In this document: one piece after another, positions 389 through 30,548 of the stretch
How positions within the stretch are numbered: the stretch's first letter is position 1
How the letters are laid out: the number at the start of each line of letters is the position of its first letter
Made by a program: the position numbers and the translations under genes
The notes under the pieces: generated by a model
What the model was told of the DNA's origin: nothing
The model's input: the letters and a program-made list of their open reading frames with translations, nothing else
The model's database searches: none
Assembly (NCBI GenBank): GCA_947652925.1
Contig: CANTEW010000030.1
Coordinates: forward strand, 1-32,223
Origin: an uncultured Lachnospiraceae bacterium
GTDB taxonomy: Bacteria; Bacillota; Clostridia; Lachnospirales; Lachnospiraceae
Direction: 5' to 3'
Length of the DNA stretch: 32,223 bases

Positions 389-1199
389 ACTCGATTTAAA
401 TAAGTTTACATTATTATCCTGAAATGTTATAATACATATAGACTATTTCAGGAGGTAAAAAAATGCCAAAGAGTGCCACGCCTATTTCTCTTTCCGATGA
501 TGATAGATCATATTTAAAGTCAATCCTGCAGAAAGGGACTGTTGAAACCAGAGTCCACAGGAGAGCCAAAATCCTCTTATTGAAATCAGATGGCATGGCG
601 GATGGAGCCATTGCTGACAAACTTGATATTTCGAGGCCAACTGTGAAACTCTGCCTGAAAAAATATATGGAATCAGGCGTGAAGACCGCCTTGGAGGACA
701 GCAAAGGCCGTGGCCGCAAAGCCGAAATTACCGATGGAGCAAAGGCATGGGTAATCAATATTGCCTGCCAGAAGCCTTCCGCCCATACGTCCAAAGAGAC
801 ACAGGAATACCTAAATACAGTGCCCGGAAGGTTTGGATTTGTGTTCACACCCACGCATGGATCCTGGCTGAATATGATGGAAGGCTTTTTCAGCAAAATG
901 ACCCGTCAGATGCTGTCAGGGATCCGCGTAAACTCAAAAGAGGAACTAAAGGAACGGATCTTGAAATATTTTGAGGATATCAACGGGGTGCCTGTACCCT
1001 ACAAATGGAAATACCGCCTGGATACGATAGACCTTTCGCAGGAAGATATCAGCACAATCGTCTATGAAGTGGTAAACGCCAAGGCGGCAAGTCCGGAGAA
1101 CCAAGGGAAACGTGCGCCCAAACCAAGGACACGCAAGCCTAAAGATCAGGCGGTTACCAATGTTCAAATTGTAAGGTTATTTAAATTGGGTTATACTAG
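381..1199 (+). mobile_element. Shortened IS630-type insertion sequence
   Basis: The ends form a 24-base inverted repeat with 21 matches: the left starts CTAGTATAAC at 381, and the right is its complement ending at 1199. TA dinucleotides at the ends fit the TA target of the IS630/Tc1 superfamily. The element is about 0.82 kb, against a usual 1.1-1.2 kb, because the middle of the transposase gene is missing. Its left end overlaps hairpin element A and its right end abuts the element at 1197, so these mobile pieces are nested or were inserted end to end. Confidence 0.7.
405..433 (+). promoter_or_regulatory. Promoter of the IS630-type gene
   Basis: TTTACA (405-410), a 17-base spacer and TATAAT (428-433) lie just inside the left IS end. 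A strong ribosome binding site, AGGAGG, follows at 451-456 before the ATG at 463. The expression signals of the shortened transposase are therefore intact. Confidence 0.65.
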
Positions 1200-1251
1200 A
1201 GCGTGTCTTAAAGATCATTCACGCCACCTGTACGCCCCACTTTGCGGGTGA
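463..1251 (+). CDS. IS630-family transposase with in-frame loss of the catalytic core
   Basis: The 262-residue frame starts at an ATG 6 bases after AGGAGG. Residues 1-100 are a typical IS630 N-terminus: paired helix-turn-helix with RRAKILLLKSDG, IADKLDISRPTVK and the GRGRKAEIT linker. After ACQKP (residue ~104) the sequence jumps to SAHTSKETQEYL, which in full-length relatives comes just after the second catalytic aspartate. The C-terminal signature TPTHGSWLNMMEGFFSK, carrying the last acidic residue of the DDE triad, is present. About 150 residues with both aspartates are thus missing while the frame stays open. The last ~25 residues run through the right IS end into the neighbouring hairpin element. 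It cannot catalyse transposition by itself; it could still bind DNA or simply be a relic. Confidence 0.75.
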   Translation: MPKSATPISLSDDDRSYLKSILQKGTVETRVHRRAKILLLKSDGMADGAIADKLDISRPTVKLCLKKYMESGVKTALEDSKGRGRKAEITDGAKAWVINIACQKPSAHTSKETQEYLNTVPGRFGFVFTPTHGSWLNMMEGFFSKMTRQMLSGIRVNSKEELKERILKYFEDINGVPVPYKWKYRLDTIDLSQEDISTIVYEVVNAKAASPENQGKRAPKPRTRKPKDQAVTNVQIVRLFKLGYTRACLKDHSRHLYAPLCG

Positions 1252-4526: not shown

Positions 4527-4539
4527 GATCCTATCTCAG
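4523..4539. terminator. Small hairpin over two convergent stop codons
   Basis: CTGAGAT-CCT-ATCTCAG forms a 7-base-pair hairpin that includes both the stop codon of the DUF4097 gene and that of the helicase gene on the other strand. There is no real U tract on either side, so termination by this element alone is doubtful. Confidence 0.3.
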
Positions 4540-6956
4540 CCTTTATCCATCCGATCCCAGAACTCACCCAGATGCTGCTCTACTGTCCCCCGGCTGCACA
4601 CGATATGGTCCGACCATTCCACCGGGAACAGCCGGCGTTGATCTCTCTGGAGGAAACGGTCATCCAAGAGCAGGATGACCCCTCTGTCCTCCGGCGTGCG
4701 GATGACCCGTCCCGCCGCCTGCAGGACCTTATTCATCCCAGGATAGCGATAGGCATAGTCAAACCCCTGTCCGCCCCGCTGGTCATAGTAAGCTTTCAAG
4801 ATCTCTCTCTCATGGCTGACCTGTGGGATCCCCGTCCCCACCACCACAACTCCGATCAAACTCTCCCCGATCAGATCGATCCCTTCCGAAAAGATCCCAC
4901 CCATGACACAAAATCCCACCAGGCTCTCTTTTCCCAGCCCTCCTTCCTTCCTGTCCGTCTGGAAATTCTCCAGAAAATCTTCCCGCTCCCCCTCATCCAT
5001 ACCCGTTTTCTGACAGATACAGCGGACCGGCTCCATAGCATAAGCTGCCAGAAACTCCTGAAAGACTTCCTGCTGCATCTGATACGAGGGAAAAAAAACC
5101 AGATAATTCCCCGCCTTCGCATTCACCGCCGCATATATATAGGAAGATATCCTCTGATATTCCTCCTGGCCGCGCCTGGTATAACGGCTGCTCACATCAC
5201 GCCCCACGCACAGACACCGCCGCCGCGGGTCAAAAGGTGACTTTACATAGACCGCATAGTCATCTTTCCTCCGGCTGAACAAAGTGCGGTAATATCCCAT
5301 GGGATGCAGTGTCGCTGAGAAAAACACCGCGCTGACCCCTTTATCCAGACATGCCTGCAGGTTCCCCGAGGGATTGACACAGAAGAGCTTCAGGAAAAAA
5401 CTGCCGTCCGGATCTTGCTGTGTATAGACCACATAGTCCTCATCCACTGATCCAGAGATGTTCAGAAAATCCCGCACCGTAAAATAAAACGCCAGCAGCT
5501 CCTCCCGCACTCCTCTGTCAATATCATCCCTGTCCTCCTCCACCAGGAGAGTCTCTATCTCTCCGATCACATTCATCACAGATACCGGGATCCCTCCGGC
5601 ATCTTTCCACACCCGGTACGTCTCACATTCATCCCGCAGCGCCTGCAATTCCCGATCCAATCTATCCAGATACCGATCCAGCTTCCGGGAGTAGGGATAA
5701 AATCTCTCATGGGCTGTTTCCACCGCCTCCTGGGTGAGGACAGCGCTGTACATCTCCCGCCCCCTGTCCACCAGATTATGGGCCTCATCAATAAGGAATA
5801 TATGCTCCCCTTTCACACCCTCGCCAAAGAAACGCCGCAGATGGGCATTGGGATCAAAGACATGATTGTAATCACAGATGACCCCATCCACCCACACTGC
5901 CAGATCCAGGCTCATCTCATAGGGGCACACCTGCCACCTGGCCGCCTGGTCCTCTATAGCCTCCCGGTCCAGCACATCCCCGCCGGTCCATAATCCATAG
6001 ACCGCATCGTTCACCCGGTCATAATGACCTTTGGCATAAGGACAGACCTCCGGATCGCAGACCGGCTTATCCAGAGGGCAGATCTTCTCCTTTGCCGTCA
6101 ATGTCAATATCTGGAAGAGTAGCCCCTGCTCCCGGAGGATAGCCACCGCTCCCTCCGCCACCGTACGGGTCACCGTCTTCGCCGTCAGATAAAAAAGTTT
6201 CTCCCCTAAGCCCTCCCCTATGGCGCGTATAGCCGGAAAAAGAGCCGACATGGTCTTTCCAACTCCGGTGGGCGCCTGCACGAACAATTGCTTCTTGCTG
6301 GCGATCGTATGATAGACCCCCCGCACGATATCCCTCTGCCCCGGTCTGTAGGGAAACGGGAACTCCAGCCCCTGCATGGAAGCGTCCCGCATCTCCTGCC
6401 ACCGCACCTGATGATCCGCCCATTTATAATATGCATCCAACAGCTCAAAAAACCAGTGGGAAAGCTCTTCCACCGTATATTCCCTGTAAAAACGCCGGAT
6501 CTGTTCTGTCTCCATATTACAATACGTCATCTGTACCGCCACTTCCCGCATCTTGTGGGATGCCGCCAGCGACCCCACATACATATAGGCATAACACTTC
6601 GCCTGCGCCAGATGCACGCCCACCGGCTCCGCAAGATGATCCAGATCGCGAAAGACGCCTTTGATCTCATCAATGACAGCGATCTCTTTTTCATCCTCTG
6701 CTCTCCCGGCAGGCATGATACCGTCCGCACGCCCCTCCACACGCAGGGTAAAGCCCTCGTATCCCTGTTCCCAGACAAGCGGCACTTCCGCCTGATAACC
6801 CGCGCCCATCTGCCGCTGGATCTTCCTGTGTATACGGCTCCCTTTCTGCATGGCCTCCTTATCCGCCAGGGAACCCTTCCGACTGTCCAGATCGCCGCTG
6901 CGCAAGATAAATTCCACCAGGTTCCTCACCGATATCCTGATCACTTTTTTTCCCAC
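4536..6956 (-). CDS. XPD/DinG-type ATP-dependent DNA helicase with nuclease-like N-terminus
   Basis: Superfamily 2 Fe-S helicase of about 806 residues. In order: an N-terminal PD-(D/E)XK-like domain (RIH near 43, RADG with D78, DEIKG with E97 and K99); Walker A APTGVGKT (~229); four cysteines at about 293, 300, 305 and 344 that fit the XPD/DinG 4Fe-4S cluster; DEAH (~390); and the C-terminal helicase motifs GIFSEGIDL and QAAGRVIRT. The family unwinds DNA 5' to 3' in repair. The GTG at 6956 is chosen because TGGAGG lies 5 bases upstream; an upstream TTG (6968) is part of that site. The nuclease residues look complete, so combined helicase and nuclease activity is possible; that is inference. 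Confidence 0.88.
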   Translation of the reverse strand: MGKKVIRISVRNLVEFILRSGDLDSRKGSLADKEAMQKGSRIHRKIQRQMGAGYQAEVPLVWEQGYEGFTLRVEGRADGIMPAGRAEDEKEIAVIDEIKGVFRDLDHLAEPVGVHLAQAKCYAYMYVGSLAASHKMREVAVQMTYCNMETEQIRRFYREYTVEELSHWFFELLDAYYKWADHQVRWQEMRDASMQGLEFPFPYRPGQRDIVRGVYHTIASKKQLFVQAPTGVGKTMSALFPAIRAIGEGLGEKLFYLTAKTVTRTVAEGAVAILREQGLLFQILTLTAKEKICPLDKPVCDPEVCPYAKGHYDRVNDAVYGLWTGGDVLDREAIEDQAARWQVCPYEMSLDLAVWVDGVICDYNHVFDPNAHLRRFFGEGVKGEHIFLIDEAHNLVDRGREMYSAVLTQEAVETAHERFYPYSRKLDRYLDRLDRELQALRDECETYRVWKDAGGIPVSVMNVIGEIETLLVEEDRDDIDRGVREELLAFYFTVRDFLNISGSVDEDYVVYTQQDPDGSFFLKLFCVNPSGNLQACLDKGVSAVFFSATLHPMGYYRTLFSRRKDDYAVYVKSPFDPRRRCLCVGRDVSSRYTRRGQEEYQRISSYIYAAVNAKAGNYLVFFPSYQMQQEVFQEFLAAYAMEPVRCICQKTGMDEGEREDFLENFQTDRKEGGLGKESLVGFCVMGGIFSEGIDLIGESLIGVVVVGTGIPQVSHEREILKAYYDQRGGQGFDYAYRYPGMNKVLQAAGRVIRTPEDRGVILLLDDRFLQRDQRRLFPVEWSDHIVCSRGTVEQHLGEFWDRMDKG

Positions 6957-6966
6957 GACTGCCTCC

Positions 6967-7018
6967 AAAAAAGGCCCATCCCCCTTCTAAATATCAGAAT
7001 AGAAAAGGAACAGGCCTC
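6967..7018 (-). terminator. Possible terminator or attenuator before the helicase gene
   Basis: On the minus strand, AGGCCTGTTCC pairs imperfectly with GGGGGATGGGCCT and is followed at once by six T, directly before the helicase ribosome binding site. It probably ends transcription from the HPr-like gene, or weakens read-through into the helicase gene. The stem is imperfect. Confidence 0.4.
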
Positions 7019-7037
7019 AAAATATATGATATCCTCT

Positions 7038-7274
7038 TTAAGCCACCGCGCTCTGCACAGCAAACTTCTCCAGAACTTTCCAGAACCGGTCGTCTGTGCC
7101 ATAACACCTGACTGTAAGGACTCTATGAAGATCCATACTCAAAACACCAAGGATAGACTTCGCATCGATCACCACACGATTATAGAAAATATCGATATCA
7201 AAGTCACATTTCCCCGCTGCTGTCACAAATTCTTTCACTTCCTGTATCCCATTTAATTTGATCTGCATTTCCAT
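7038..7274 (-). CDS. HPr-like protein lacking the active histidine
   Basis: This 78-residue protein has the HPr fold pattern: IKLNGIQEVKEFVTAAG, then FDIDIFYNRVVIDAKSILGVLSM and a final helix. The DAKSILGVLSM segment matches the regulatory-serine loop of HPr (Ser46 region; here S40), but the segment that should carry His15 reads LNGIQEV with no histidine. It therefore cannot pass phosphate in the PTS in the usual way and resembles Crh-type regulators, although Crh kinase control cannot be shown here. The ATG at 7274 follows GAGGAGGAG; the frame extends to an ATG at 7334 without a ribosome site. Confidence 0.75.
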   Translation of the reverse strand: MEMQIKLNGIQEVKEFVTAAGKCDFDIDIFYNRVVIDAKSILGVLSMDLHRVLTVRCYGTDDRFWKVLEKFAVQSAVA

Positions 7275-7406
7275 AACGCTCTCCTCCTCATGAATGAAAC
7301 CAACGTCTACAATGGATCCGTTACTGTCAGCCATGATAGGCCATAGAAAGTAACCCTTTTGATCTAGTCTTATCCGTTTAAACTTAACACCTTTTTAATC
7401 TGACCC

Positions 7407-7444: not shown

Positions 7445-8215
7445 TCACCAAAACTCCGGCATGTATCTTCGATATTTGTACGGGAGATTTTGTCTCTGCA
7501 CCCTTAAGTTTTCCCGTTCCGTGACCGATATACTCTGACAAAAGACTTTCCAGAGAGCCGCATACTCTCCTTTGTCGCCGCTGCCCTGCACCCGTTCTAT
7601 ATCCAGTCCGGCCCCCCGCACGATATAAAAAGGCTTCCCAGCCGGATGGAGCAGCGCGTCCCGGCGCTCCTCGTCGTAGATGATCCAATCTTCCCTGGGC
7701 AGACGATCCTCAAAATGAGGCCCGATCAAGGGCAGGATGGGATTGTCCGGGCAGATGACCGCGAACAAGATCCCATCCTGGATCTCCTGAAACCGGACAA
7801 ATCCCAGGAATCGGTGCATCTCATGCCACACGGTCTGGCGCAGCTTGGAGAGCTTCAATATAGAAGGATCTTTCAGATCCTCCAGTATGGCCGGGTTCCC
7901 CTGTCCGTAGGACAGCCCTTTCCGGACCGCATGATAGATACAGGTCCCCTTTTCCTTATCTGTGGAGCATGCCGCATAACACAGATGCTCATAAGAAGCC
8001 CGCCCCAGCTGGCGCCATATGGTGCGCATCACCTTTCCCGCTTTTTCCTGATCCGCAGCCACATCCACATAATGGCAGAAAAGCTCCGACTGCCCGGGAG
8101 GTCCCATACACAGCTCCACCTCTGCCCCCCTGTTCCCGTATCGCCATCCCTCATAGACCCCTGTAAAGATCCCTTCTATACTATCCTCACAGACCAACAC
8201 ATATTTTTCATTCAC
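7445..8215 (-). CDS. TIGR03915 family putative DNA-metabolism protein
   Basis: This 256-residue protein matches the family named TIGR03915 (with a DUF4130 region), known as the partner of the radical SAM protein TIGR03916 and found fused to a uracil-DNA glycosylase-like domain in other bacteria. Landmarks are the start YVLVCEDSIEGIFTGVYEGW, the middle VWHEMHRFLGFVRFQE and the end LPYKYRRYMPEF. The start codon overlaps the stop of the radical SAM gene (ATGA), so the two are translationally coupled. Co-occurrence points to DNA repair or base processing; the reaction is unknown. Expression should follow the LexA-like promoter upstream of the pair. Confidence 0.85.
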   Translation of the reverse strand: MNEKYVLVCEDSIEGIFTGVYEGWRYGNRGAEVELCMGPPGQSELFCHYVDVAADQEKAGKVMRTIWRQLGRASYEHLCYAACSTDKEKGTCIYHAVRKGLSYGQGNPAILEDLKDPSILKLSKLRQTVWHEMHRFLGFVRFQEIQDGILFAVICPDNPILPLIGPHFEDRLPREDWIIYDEERRDALLHPAGKPFYIVRGAGLDIERVQGSGDKGEYAALWKVFCQSISVTERENLRVQRQNLPYKYRRYMPEFW

Positions 8216-9519
8216 GACGACAGTCCCACCCCCATATCTGCAAACAAGGACAACTGACGAAAACCTTCCGCCTGGACAAGAGTGCCGTTCTTCCTGCCCT
8301 GTCCTTCCAATAGACTCTGCGTGATCGCCTGTTCTTCCATCTTGACAGGAAAGAACGTCTTCCCTTTACAGGTGATAAAATAGACAGCCCGCTTCAAAAC
8401 GACCCCCATCTTCCTAAGATCCTCAAAATCCAGACTGCCGTATCTCCTCGCACCCAATATCTTCCTGGCCGACTTCTCCCCGATCCCTGGCACTCTGAGC
8501 AATGTACGATAGTCCGCCTTATTGATCTCCACCGGGAACCATTCCAGATGCCCCACCGCCCAATCACATTTCGGATCCAAAAATACATTAAAATCCGGTC
8601 TTTGAGGGCTTAACAGCTCGTCCGCAGTGAATCCGTAAAAACGCAGGAGCCAGTCCGCCTGGTAAAGCCTGTGTTCCCGCAGCAAGGGCGGCCCCTGGGT
8701 GGGCGCGGGAAGATCCAAGTCTCTATTCACCTGTACAAAAGCCGAATAAAAAACCCTTTTCAGCGCGAACTTTTTATACAGGGATTCCGCTACGGAGACG
8801 ATCTGATAATCCGTCTCCCCGGACGCCCCGATGATCATCTGGGTACTCTGCCCGGCCGGGACAAAACGCGGACTGTGGGGGCTGACCGCCAGTTCTTGGC
8901 GGTTCTCACTGGCTTTCAGCTGGATCCGCCGCATCGGTTCCAGGATCGTCTTCCGGCTCTTATGGGGAGCCAGGCGTTTCAGGCCCTCCGCCGTGGGAAA
9001 TTCCAGGTTCACGCTCATCCTGTCCGCCAGATAGCCCGCCTGCTCGATCAACTGGGCAGACGCCCCGGGGATCGTCTTCAGATGGATATACCCCTGGAAA
9101 GCATACTGCCTGCGCAGCCGGTACACCGTCTCATACAGGAGTCCCATGGTATAGTCCGGGCTGTGCAGGACCCCGGAACTTAAGAACAGCCCCTCTATAT
9201 AATTCCTGCGGTAGAACTGTATAGTCAGCTCACAGATCTCCTCCGGTGTGAAGGAAGCCCGTACCACATCGTTTGAACTGCGGTTGATACAATATTTACA
9301 ATCAAATACACATTCATTGGTAAAGAGGATCTTCAGCAGTGTGATACAGCGCCCGTCCGCCGAAAAACTGTGGCAGATGCCCGGAGCGATACAGTTCCCT
9401 ATACCTTTGCCGTCCCCTTTCCTGTCATGGCCGCTGGACGTACAGGCCACATCATACTTGGCTGCATCCGATAAGATACGCAGCTTCTCCTCTACCGTCA
9501 TTTTCTCCTGGATCACCAT
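8212..9519 (-). CDS. Radical SAM protein linked to DNA repair (TIGR03916 type)
   Basis: This protein of about 435 residues has the radical SAM motif CVFDCKYC (C70, C74, C77 from this start) that binds a 4Fe-4S cluster and S-adenosylmethionine. It carries a conserved N-terminal block (AAKYDVACTSSG) and, towards the C-terminus, a helix-hairpin-helix DNA-binding motif (LLRVPGIGEKSARKIL). The combination matches TIGR03916, a putative DNA modification/repair radical SAM family linked to UDG-like proteins. Two starts are possible: the ATG at 9519, 10 bases after GGAG, and the ATG at 9501, only 3 bases after AGGAG but fitting the usual family N-terminus. It is first in a two-gene operon with the TIGR03915 gene. 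The substrate is unknown; photoproduct lyase-like or base-repair chemistry is conceivable. Confidence 0.88.
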   Translation of the reverse strand: MVIQEKMTVEEKLRILSDAAKYDVACTSSGHDRKGDGKGIGNCIAPGICHSFSADGRCITLLKILFTNECVFDCKYCINRSSNDVVRASFTPEEICELTIQFYRRNYIEGLFLSSGVLHSPDYTMGLLYETVYRLRRQYAFQGYIHLKTIPGASAQLIEQAGYLADRMSVNLEFPTAEGLKRLAPHKSRKTILEPMRRIQLKASENRQELAVSPHSPRFVPAGQSTQMIIGASGETDYQIVSVAESLYKKFALKRVFYSAFVQVNRDLDLPAPTQGPPLLREHRLYQADWLLRFYGFTADELLSPQRPDFNVFLDPKCDWAVGHLEWFPVEINKADYRTLLRVPGIGEKSARKILGARRYGSLDFEDLRKMGVVLKRAVYFITCKGKTFFPVKMEEQAITQSLLEGQGRKNGTLVQAEGFRQLSLFADMGVGLSS

Positions 9520-9526
9520 ACGCAAA

Positions 9527-9582
9527 CAACTCCAAACGTTCGTTCTTATATTGATTATAGAACGAGCGTTTGGAGTTGTCAA
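9527..9582 (-). promoter_or_regulatory. Consensus promoter with two LexA-like (SOS) boxes
   Basis: On the minus strand TTGACA (9582-9577), exactly 17 bases and TATAAT (9559-9554) form a full-consensus promoter. The spacer holds GAACGAGCGTTT (9560-9571), and a second box, GAACGAACGTTT, read on the minus strand, lies at 9545-9534 around the expected transcription start. Both fit the clostridial LexA pattern GAAC-N4-GTTT. The boxes sit in a 20-base inverted repeat with one mismatch (9527-9546 and 9559-9578). A repressor bound here would block RNA polymerase, so DNA-damage induction of the radical SAM/TIGR03915 operon is expected; the binding itself is inferred. Confidence 0.75.
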
Positions 9583-9590
9583 TACTTATT

Positions 9591-10427
9591 TTAATCTAAT
9601 TTTGGCATTGCCTCAACGCCGCCCGCAAGATGGGGATTTTCCACTTCATGGAAGCGGCCCTTATCCGCGCAGGACGCATACGCAGGGTCCACAGGCATCT
9701 TGCCCAGCAGAGGTACATTCAGATCCTTGGCGATCTCCTCTATATGGCTCTCGCCAAATACTTTTAATTCCTTTCCGCAGTCGGGACATTTTACATAGCT
9801 GTAATTCTCTACAATGCCCAACACCGGGATATGCATCATCTCAGCCATATTATAAGCCTTCTTCACGATCATGCTCACCAGGTCCTGGGGAGAAGTGACG
9901 ATCACTACGCCGTCCACAGGCAGGGACTGGAACACCGTCAGGGGTACATCCCCGGTCCCCGGAGGCATATCCACAAGGAGATAATCGATCTCTTCCCAGA
10001 CAACATCTGTCCAGAACTGTTTGACCATATTGGCGATCACCGGCCCTCTCCAGATCACCGGAGTCTCCTCTGAAGGCAGGAGCAAGTTGACTGAGATCAC
10101 CTTGATCCCATTCTCTGTGACTTTCGGCTGCAGGCCGTTCTCATCTGCATAAGCAGCCCCGGTCAGACCATACATCTTCGGGATGGACGGTCCTGTCACA
10201 TCCGCGTCCAGGATCCCCACTCTAAAGCCTTTGGCTGCCAATTGGTTCGCAAGGGAAGCCGCCACAAAAGATTTGCCCACGCCTCCTTTGCCGCTGACGA
10301 CCCCGATCACCTTCTTTATCTCTGAAAACTGGTTACAGACTTCTTTCGGTATCCCGTTTTCCTGTTTTTCTTTGCAGCCTGCACAATCATCTTTTGTGCA
10401 GCTGGCATTGTCGCATTCTTTTGCCAT
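9591..10427 (-). CDS. Mrp/NBP35-family Fe-S carrier ATPase
   Basis: This 278-residue P-loop ATPase of the Mrp/ApbC type moves 4Fe-4S clusters to apoproteins. The deviant Walker A GKGGVGKS is at 46-53, DADVTGPS near 74, and DMPPGTGD near 153. The CxxC (C214, C217, in KCPDCGKE) is the usual bridging cluster site. An extra N-terminal stretch with cysteines 5, 10, 15 and 18 resembles the NBP35 N-terminus. The ATG at 10427 follows AAGGAG by 11 bases; a GTG at 10439 overlaps that site. It is 18 bases downstream of the CsoR-type gene and probably co-transcribed. The radical SAM promoter starts just behind its stop. Confidence 0.9.
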   Translation of the reverse strand: MAKECDNASCTKDDCAGCKEKQENGIPKEVCNQFSEIKKVIGVVSGKGGVGKSFVAASLANQLAAKGFRVGILDADVTGPSIPKMYGLTGAAYADENGLQPKVTENGIKVISVNLLLPSEETPVIWRGPVIANMVKQFWTDVVWEEIDYLLVDMPPGTGDVPLTVFQSLPVDGVVIVTSPQDLVSMIVKKAYNMAEMMHIPVLGIVENYSYVKCPDCGKELKVFGESHIEEIAKDLNVPLLGKMPVDPAYASCADKGRFHEVENPHLAGGVEAMPKLD

Positions 10428-10445
10428 TGTTGTATCCACTCCTTC

Positions 10446-22390: not shown

Positions 22391-23323
22391 TCATCTGCTG
22401 CAGCGGTAACACAGGTTCTCCCACCTGCGGTCCACCTCTTTTTGGAATTCCTCGATCAGGTACTCGTTCCCTTTCTTAAACAGATGTTTGAAACGTCCCT
22501 GTTTGACCAGGAAGTCTTCGATCGGGAGTTTTTTCTTCGGTTCATAGTCCAATGTCCACTTGCCCTCTTCCACCTGGAACAAAGGCCAGTAATTCGTCTC
22601 CACGCCCAGGCGGCAGATCTCCATGATATCCGCCGTGGGGTACTGCCATCCCCTGGGACAGGGCGCCATGATGTTTAAGAACGCCGCCCCTTCTGTATAG
22701 ATGGCCTTCTCCGCTTTCACATGCAGATCCTTGAAATTTTTCCAGAAAGTGGTCTGCGCCACATAGGGCACGTCGTGCTCTGCGATGATAGAAGCCAGGT
22801 CTTTCCTGTTCTGCGGTTTCCCGTTACTCTTGCTGCCCACCGGCGTGGTGGTGGTATTGGCATACATGGGCGTAGCCGAGGAACGCTGGATACCCGTGTT
22901 CATATAAGCCCCGTTGTCATAGCACACATAGACCATATCGTGGTCACGCTCCATCGCCCCGGACAGGGACTGGAAGCCGATATCGTATGTGCCGCCGTCT
23001 CCGCCGAAAGTGATGAATTTATAGTTATCGGAGATCTTCCCTTTTTTCTTCAATACGCGGTAAGCCGTCTCCACGCCGCTCAGAGTGGCTCCGGCGTTCT
23101 CAAAAGCATTATGTATATAACTGTCCTCCCAGGCTGTGTAAGGATACATGAAAGTAGAAACCTCCATACAGCCCGTGGCATTCCCGATGACTGCCCGGTC
23201 GCCCTCGTGGAGCCCGCGCAGCACGTTCCTTGCCGCGATGGTGCCGCCGCAGCCTGCGCACATCCTGTGCCCCGGCGCCAGACGTTCCGGCTTGCTCATT
23301 GTCTCTTTAAAATTATAGGCCAT
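22391..23323 (-). CDS. porB: Pyruvate:ferredoxin oxidoreductase, beta subunit
   Basis: This 310-residue subunit binds thiamine diphosphate and a 4Fe-4S cluster in the four-subunit PFOR, which converts pyruvate and CoA to acetyl-CoA, CO2 and reduced ferredoxin. The ThDP motif begins GDGGTYDIGFQSLSGA (~108). Cluster cysteines are visible in MCAGCGG (22, 25), the conserved GCMEV (51) and APCPRGW (~219). The block NGAYMNTGIQRSSATPM with TTTTPVG is typical of pyruvate rather than 2-oxoglutarate enzymes. It is 19 bases behind porA. Confidence 0.93.
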   Translation of the reverse strand: MAYNFKETMSKPERLAPGHRMCAGCGGTIAARNVLRGLHEGDRAVIGNATGCMEVSTFMYPYTAWEDSYIHNAFENAGATLSGVETAYRVLKKKGKISDNYKFITFGGDGGTYDIGFQSLSGAMERDHDMVYVCYDNGAYMNTGIQRSSATPMYANTTTTPVGSKSNGKPQNRKDLASIIAEHDVPYVAQTTFWKNFKDLHVKAEKAIYTEGAAFLNIMAPCPRGWQYPTADIMEICRLGVETNYWPLFQVEEGKWTLDYEPKKKLPIEDFLVKQGRFKHLFKKGNEYLIEEFQKEVDRRWENLCYRCSR

Positions 23324-27965: not shown

Positions 27966-29334
27966 GGTAAACGCATGATTTGATATCTATGCATCAAGGA
28001 AAAAATCTGTTATATTGTCTTTGATAACTGACAATCTCCGCACAATCGTGTACAATGATCTCCATAACATCTTGAAAGTAGATCATGATCATGGCAGAAA
28101 TGAGAAATGAACTTTCATTGATCGGATGTATGGAGCAGGTTCCGGATCCGAGAGCGCCATACAACCAGAGACACAAATTTCTTGATAGTATCATCATTGC
28201 TGTTACCGCAATCCTTTGCGGAATGGATACCTGGAATGAGATCAAGGATTGGGCATAGCCAAAAAAAGAATGGCTGGAAACATTTTTGGAACTTCCCAGT
28301 GAGATCCCATCCCATGATACGATCAACCGGGTATTCCAGATGATCGATCCGGACCAGTTTCATGATGCCTTTTTTCGGTGGACCAGCGCAGTTGCGGGAA
28401 AGATCGAAGGGGTTGTAGCCATTGACGGCAAGACCATCCGCCGCAGTAAGGATGAAAGCAAAGTAAACCGCCCATCCTTTGTGGTAAGTGCATGGGCCTG
28501 TAACGCATCCCTTGTTTTAGGGCAGTTACGGGTGGATAAAAAGACAAATGAGATCAAAGCGATCCCAGAGCTGCTGGAGATCATCTGCCTGAAAGGGTGT
28601 GTGGTGACTATTGATGCCATGGGGACCCAGAAGGAGATCGCCGAAAAGATCCTAGACAAAGAAGCGGACTATATCCTTCAGGTAAAAGGGAACCAGGAAA
28701 CGCTGCTGGAGGACATTTCGTTATATTTTTAAAGAGGAGATATTCCCACATCCCAAGAAAGAACTGGAAAGAGAGGACCGGTACTGGAAGGAAATGAGCT
28801 TTGACCACGGCAGAATGGAGATCCGAGAATTTTATGTGGAAAATGATGTTGAATGGCTTAGGAAGAGCCACTCCGGTTAGAAAGGACTAAAGGGGATCGG
28901 TGCCTGCACAGCAACCGTGACTGAAAACGGTGAGACAACGACAGCGGTACCGTATTCCATATACAGTCAGGAAAAGATGAAGGCGGAAGGATACGGGAAG
29001 AGCAGACGAGCACACTGGGGGATCGAGAACAGCCTGCACTGGGTGTTGGACATTGGGTTCCGTGAAGACGAAAGCCGGATGCGGGCAGGAAATGTAAATG
29101 TACTACGACACATAGGGATGGATCTGCTGAAACAGGAAAAAAGCTGTCGTATGGAAATCGCAAGCAAAAGAAAAAAATGTGGCTATGACCAGAAATATCT
29201 ATAATAAAGTTCTTAGCGGACTAAATACAGGCATTGAATAAAAAGCGCATAGCAGTGCCGCATTTATAAAAATGGTTTAAGTAGACATATCATGCAGGCG
29301 ATATGTTTACTTGATTTAGAAGCTTGCGTTTACC
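27966..29334 (+). mobile_element. Decayed ISAs1-family insertion sequence
   Basis: The ends GGTAAACGCA (27966-27975) and TGCGTTTACC (29325-29334) are inverted repeats, and the 1369 bases between them hold an ISAs1-type transposase gene with stops and a frameshift. No target duplication is evident. A 13-base hairpin with one mismatch (29279-29312) lies behind the transposase gene and may block read-through. Confidence 0.65.
28091..29204 (+). pseudogene. ISAs1-family transposase, broken
   Basis: The translated pieces match an ISAs1/IS1548-type transposase: an N-terminal DPRAPYNQRHKFLDSIIIAV, the first acidic block VAIDGKTIRRS, the second VVTIDAMGTQKEIAEKI, the block ADYILQVKGNQE and the last, AHWGIENSLHWVLDI. 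Three defects interrupt it: TAG at 28256, a one-base insertion in the T run 28726-28730 that leads to TAA, and TAG at 28878 where relatives have tryptophan (GWKGL). All catalytic blocks are otherwise present, so the decay is fairly recent. It is inactive. Confidence 0.85.
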
Positions 29335-30292: not shown

Positions 30293-30303
30293 ATATCCCA
30301 AAA

Positions 30304-30347
30304 TAAAAGAGAGGTGTTGGAGTTTACACTCTAACACCTCTCTTTTA
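30304..30347. terminator. Bidirectional intrinsic terminator
   Basis: TAAAAGAGAGGTGTTGGAGT and its near-perfect complement (one G-T pair) enclose the loop TTAC, with T or A runs on both sides. It can end transcription of the surface-protein gene from the right and of anything from the left. The rest of 30293-30548 holds nothing recognisable. Confidence 0.85.
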
Positions 30348-30548
30348 TCCACAATCCGAATGTAACATAGTTACATAAAATACTGCAGATCCAATGGATC
30401 AATATCTTTAATAAAATGATATTTTAACCAATGGATAAATACGCCCTACTTGAGAAAATATTTTTTATTTATCGATTGGCATTTATTAGTTACTCTTATA
30501 TATCCCAATCTCCAGACCCGCGCTTTCCGGTCATACTCTTGTTTAAGA

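Follow-up and report, generated by a model that had tools for sequence, protein, structure and literature searches.

The window analysed here, the whole 32,223-nucleotide stretch of DNA, carries a two-gene operon on its minus strand, comprising a radical SAM gene of family TIGR03916 and a TIGR03915/DUF4130 gene, with a promoter that holds two putative LexA boxes (Table 1). The GTG start of the second gene overlaps the stop of the first, and the same order is found elsewhere, with the TIGR03915/DUF4130 gene downstream of the radical SAM gene in 78 of the 79 named loci used (out of 80; one has 112 bases upstream, and the set partly overlaps the unnamed one). In the radical SAM protein, the cysteines of the CxxxCxxC cluster motif (C70, C74 and C77) are invariant in 42 sequences. 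Among the named matches listed, the closest is a radical SAM protein with 88% identity from an unclassified Clostridia isolate, and Lachnospiraceae supply most of the others; the comparison may omit records very close to the window. Searched against PDB sequences, the radical SAM protein gave a single weak match, within its HhH-like region, and a PHROGs search with the operon proteins matched residues 1-104 to phrog_6306, of unknown function.

Table 1. Positions in the window of the operon, its promoter and the associated boxes
Feature	Positions	Strand or placing	Score, basis or detail
Radical SAM protein with HhH-like C-terminal region, TIGR03916	8212-9519	minus	672.7 bits (cut-off 343.5)
TIGR03915/DUF4130 protein	7445-8215	minus	225 bits (cut-off 112.25)
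−35 hexamer TTGACA	9577-9582	minus	sequence
−10 hexamer TATAAT, 17 bases from −35	9554-9559	minus	sequence
Putative LexA box 1, GAACGAGCGTTT (plus strand; near-palindromic)	9560-9571	−35/−10 spacer	exact GAAC-N4-GTTT
Putative LexA box 2, GAACGAACGTTT (minus strand)	9534-9545	just past predicted start	exact GAAC-N4-GTTT
Likely Shine-Dalgarno GGAG	9530-9533	minus	by eye; adjoins box 2; 10 bases before ATG
Inferred start codon ATG, radical SAM gene	9517-9519	minus	sequence
Inverted repeat with both boxes	9526-9579		arms 9526-9546 and 9559-9579; outer arms CAACTCC / GGAGTTG

Several neighbours of the operon are recognizable. An XPD/DinG-type helicase gene (Helicase_C_2, DEAD_2; 4536-6968, minus) lies two genes downstream, with a gene for a weakly HPr-like protein (7038-7334) between it and the operon. 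An Mrp/ApbC-type ATPase gene (9591-10439, minus) ends immediately before the promoter and is adjoined by a gene for a CsoR/RcnR-type metal-sensing repressor (PF02583; 10446-10808, minus) with a His-rich N-terminus. Transposase-like frames of the IS630 and ISAs1 types, possibly broken, were seen by eye at 463-1251 (+) and 28286-29204 (+). No UDG-family domain was found in the pair or in the four neighbouring genes scanned. TIGR03914 scored above its cut-off in 0 of 150 genomes of the window's family, with lower matches in six of the 150, and the host genome has one such sub-cut-off match on another contig (C1; 142.3 bits versus a cut-off of 189.95). The description of the pair as UDG-linked in an earlier note on this DNA is thus unfit for the window's family.

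The promoter is a strong sigma-A-type promoter, and what the earlier note had described there proved right on inspection of the minus strand: a full-consensus TTGACA-17-TATAAT promoter, two exact GAAC-N4-GTTT boxes, and a near-perfect inverted repeat around them, with 18 of 19 positions paired in every 19-base register reported. The placing of the boxes could be refined, since the second, said to lie across the start site, is centred at about +8, just downstream of the predicted start, and the first at about −18. A second in-frame ATG deeper inside the radical SAM gene is a possible alternative start codon. Because the predicted start comes after the first arm of the repeat, the repeat should not fold in the operon mRNA; a leader RNA structure was also considered, and is unsupported because the fold of 9480-9550 gave a z of 0.12.

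GAAC-N4-GTTT/C has been used as a clostridial LexA search motif, according to the part of the source consulted (PMC4234289). The bare GAAC-N4-GTTT count is not unusual in the window, where two matches stand against 0.63 expected and 16 of 100 shuffles reach at least two, nor in the host genome, where the pattern occurs less often than its backward control (64 versus 83). Genome-wide counting of this pattern was dropped as evidence because of that lack of enrichment. The palindromic form GAAC-N4-GTTC is commoner in the genome than its control (44 strand hits, at 22 places, versus 20), and none of its genome matches falls in the window promoter. Unlike the bare pattern, the box pair and the inverted repeat exceed chance: two matches within 60 bases arose in 1 of 500 window shuffles, and a comparable 19-base inverted repeat in 0 of 100. 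The real window holds two further such repeats, near 2392-2458 and 30303-30348 (18-19 of 19 pairs), which are perhaps terminators or insertion-element ends.

To score individual sites, we used an independent LexA matrix built solely from 81 sites of lexA and recA promoters of the family. On this scale box 1 is the weaker window site (9.3 bits) and box 2 the stronger (13.7 bits), and both have unusual centres, GAGC and GAAC versus ATAT. Taken singly, neither box outscores chance in-gene sites, since matrix sites inside open frames of the host genome reach 15.7 bits (L344). The host-genome stretches fetched gave 53 site rows, 40 inside long frames and 13 outside, in a count that covers part of the genome's pattern matches and includes recA twice. 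One further 15.7-bit host site (L341; G000:C34:9499-9510) lies just ahead of an MGS-like-domain frame, or within it if that frame is read longer. Within the window, a 12.7-bit site at 22478-22489 is in a coding frame and was taken as chance, and LexA control of the helicase gene was rejected, its site (8.7 bits, 6282-6293) being intragenic. The unenriched bare pattern and the equally high in-gene scores are what one would expect if the boxes were chance matches within a strong constitutive promoter; the closeness of the pair, which so few shuffles reproduce, speaks against this, and the presence of the boxes upstream of 79 orthologues out of 86, counting the window, contradicts it, making an origin by chance scarcely credible.

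The orthologue counts come from 150 genomes of the window's family, 87 of which have TIGR03916 above cut-off; 86 promoters were read, the window included, and one genome (G063) was left out as the N-terminus is missing. The scan upstream of TIGR03916 genes that the earlier note had suggested found the boxes to be widely present, both as the exact pattern GAAC-N4-GTT[TC] within 300 bases upstream (79/86) and by the independent matrix, with sites of at least 10 bits before 86 of 88 radical SAM genes (85 from the family and 3 from the genus, without the window). The lack of boxes that the earlier note had named as refuting its reading was thus not observed. The controls were far lower for the exact pattern (1/86 coding stretches; a mean of 1.2 over 50 shuffles; 0-4 of 86 promoters for 11 other permuted half-sites) and for the matrix (0/88 coding stretches; 2/87 more distant upstream stretches). 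Other half-site spacings were matched in 0-14 of 86 promoters; the 14 and 11 found at spacings 8 and 0 may be inner variants of the sites already counted.

The same motif was found before recA in 30 of 30 anchored family loci and before lexA in 18 of 22, which served as positive controls. The lexA loci are 22 of 29 fetched, seven not being caught by the anchor motif, and one of the 22 has 60 bases only; they were anchored inside the protein, so that distances are not measured from the start codon. The host genome, from a gut bacterium (98% complete, 100 contigs, Lachnospiraceae-type), holds one LexA, whose sequence carries what we take to be the Ala-Gly, Ser and Lys cleavage features. Its recA box scores 17.8 bits and a further box precedes a Y-family polymerase; its lexA promoter has one-mismatch sites alone, which are weak (6.8 and 6.4 bits), and its uvrB match runs to the contig end, which leaves no uvrB promoter to read. 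The sites before orthologues and the motif shared with recA and lexA support the earlier note's reading of the pair as being under LexA-type control.

Beyond the family, the association is less complete. The phylum set comprises 89 of 91 genomes, from other families by listing, with the window and one contig-start gene left out. Matrix sites of at least 10 bits precede 59 of the 89 orthologues, 30 are without a site at that threshold, and the exact pattern occurs within 330 bases in 54 of 89 (the coding control covers the family set). In one genus (f92/g289, L226-L232), 7 of 7 drawn genomes have both TIGR03916 and LexA without a LexA site before the gene; LexA control is therefore not universal, being absent or changed there, and a loss of SOS control is possible. 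A pattern that speaks for LexA control was noticed post hoc, by eye, in five genomes with TIGR03916 above cut-off: G391 has no LexA match and no site at 10 bits, and G262, G203, G521 and G327 have distant LexA matches alone (E 3e-4 to 1e-36) and likewise no site at 10 bits, G391 being 79% and G262 81% complete.

The operators recur in pairs. Among 161 distinct promoters (those sharing 50 bases removed; site threshold 9 bits), 154 have at least one site. New here is that 132 of the 161 carry two or more, and that 100 of these paired promoters fall into two spacing classes, of 23-31 bases (57 promoters) and 54-61 bases (43), with 32 at other spacings; 89 coding controls had none. Position medians were taken over promoters passing the −35/−10 score limit, duplicates included. 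Relative to the predicted start, the median site centres of the first class are at −20 and +8 (59 promoters) and those of the second at −50 and +6 (41 promoters). The window promoter, with its centres at −18 and +8, falls in the first class, an arrangement in which LexA would sit on both the spacer and the start site.

The inverted repeat extends beyond the boxes into outer arms, which are identical in the window and in two congeners (L101 and L103) at only 51-61% agreement in third codon positions; the arms are thus conserved in three of the four genus members read. The right arm holds the likely Shine-Dalgarno and is therefore in part conserved for that reason, and together with the −35 element this accounts for part of the arm conservation. 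One might regard the long repeat with its outer arms as the true site of another regulator, for example a TetR- or MarR-type repressor, with LexA uninvolved. The identity of the arms at such low third-position agreement and the departure of both box centres from the LexA consensus would fit such an operator. However, the fourth congener (L100) keeps both boxes and not the arms, the right-arm Shine-Dalgarno explains some of the conservation, the motif is common to recA and lexA promoters across the family, and a matrix derived from those promoters finds the orthologous radical SAM sites. Furthermore, outer symmetry reaches 7 of 7 in the window's genus only, and averages 3.2 of 7 versus 2.5 in shuffles (shuffle sd 0.16) over 59 spacer-type (class A) rows, four of which are from the window's genus (L103 and L252 are apparently one contig). 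We regard an unrelated regulator as highly improbable.

The same 3.2 versus 2.5 is too weak to show that LexA operators in general are symmetrically extended, an idea that was rejected. It is, with the genus counted in, an excess of symmetry in spacer-type promoters, and with the retention of the arms in three of four genus members it could indicate a shared site, with the boxes recognized by LexA and the outer arms by a second factor specific to the genus. Such a factor would add to LexA control rather than replace it; AT-rich flanks, the −35 element and the Shine-Dalgarno can produce symmetry of this kind, and we consider a second factor improbable.

The partner protein offers a structural lead. 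Its model resembles a degenerate DHH/DHHA1-like fold, with RecJ, Cdc45 and NrnA among the top rows listed, at TM-scores by query of 0.12-0.39 among the 50 matches listed. The modelled fold may be akin to that of DHH/DHHA1 phosphoesterases (RecJ, NrnA, Cdc45, family II pyrophosphatase), but DUF4130 lacks a conserved DHH triad, none appearing among residues conserved in at least 75% of 61 DUF4130 sequences. Of the 26 families matched by the 61 members with E values of up to 10, the 25 listed include no DHH or DHHA1 family, and a sequence tie between DUF4130 and DHH families, being unseen among those listed, was set aside; the PDB has no sequence match for DUF4130. It is conceivable, though we think it rather unlikely, that DUF4130 is, like Cdc45, a DHH/DHHA1 protein that has lost catalysis, which would bind DNA ends or single strands and pass a damaged base on to its radical SAM partner, in a LexA-induced, radical-based DNA repair route of anaerobes without a linked uracil-DNA glycosylase.

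A LexA link of such a pair is not unprecedented. Its kind is already known because SOS control was predicted or reported earlier, in the parts of the sources consulted, for two operons. For the CAC3343-CAC3344 operon of Clostridium acetobutylicum, a similarly described pair in which CAC3343 is TIGR03916 by product name alone, LexA control was predicted in 2013 (PMC3828012). That prediction, in the part consulted, concerns one species, and the present analysis adds a family-wide test, the paired-operator geometry and the partner fold. For the UDG-linked COG1573-COG4277 operon, SOS control is described in Bacteroidetes and cited also for Verrucomicrobia and Alphaproteobacteria; it probably contains the same radical SAM family, but differs, as far as the part consulted goes, in its LexA motifs and its UDG partner, the window's family having no TIGR03914 above cut-off (PMC8565304). 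DUF4130 itself has been placed in the SOS network, where it is predicted to be an enzyme related to mutagenesis and is linked to UDGs and to radical SAM proteins resembling SplB; there the link, in the section seen, comes from gene neighbourhoods, and here from LexA sites and a fold model (PMC3765255). Two LexA operators at one promoter are described in the part consulted for E. coli lexA, with which the radical SAM operon promoters agree in number (PMC9210283); here the pairs mark a radical SAM operon and have two recurring spacings. The Streptomyces venezuelae LexA list, in the portion seen, includes a radical SAM gene (PMC9380542). The open-licence papers listed held nothing on DUF4130 beyond PMC3765255, and did not contain the family-wide LexA tie, the operator geometry or the DUF4130 fold lead. 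The correspondence of COG4277 to TIGR03916 is our own assumption.

The promoter, its boxes, their conservation before orthologues, the motif shared with recA and lexA, and the presence of LexA form the direct basis for an explanation in which we have high confidence, namely that a strong promoter is shut by LexA at two operators and that RecA-triggered cleavage frees transcription of the two-gene operon. LexA would repress the sigma-A-type promoter from the −35/−10 spacer and from just past the start, and its presence at both operators is proposed to block RNA polymerase. RecA filaments on damaged DNA would then induce LexA self-cleavage, which would allow high-rate transcription of the TIGR03916 radical SAM gene and the overlapping TIGR03915/DUF4130 gene. 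We infer this occlusion, and its relief by RecA-driven cleavage, from established SOS biology; LexA would bind the boxes, damage would induce the operon, and the two proteins would presumably act on DNA.

That the operators come in pairs points to tight repression, at a promoter that is itself very strong. Since LexA-like sites are kept by most relatives that have the operon, its membership of the DNA-damage response is, judged from sequence, very probable. The DHH/DHHA1-like model may serve as a structural lead on DUF4130. For a pair whose chemistry is unknown, the family-wide LexA tie tells when a phenotype should be sought, after DNA damage and without oxygen, and opens its function to simple tests of survival and mutation.
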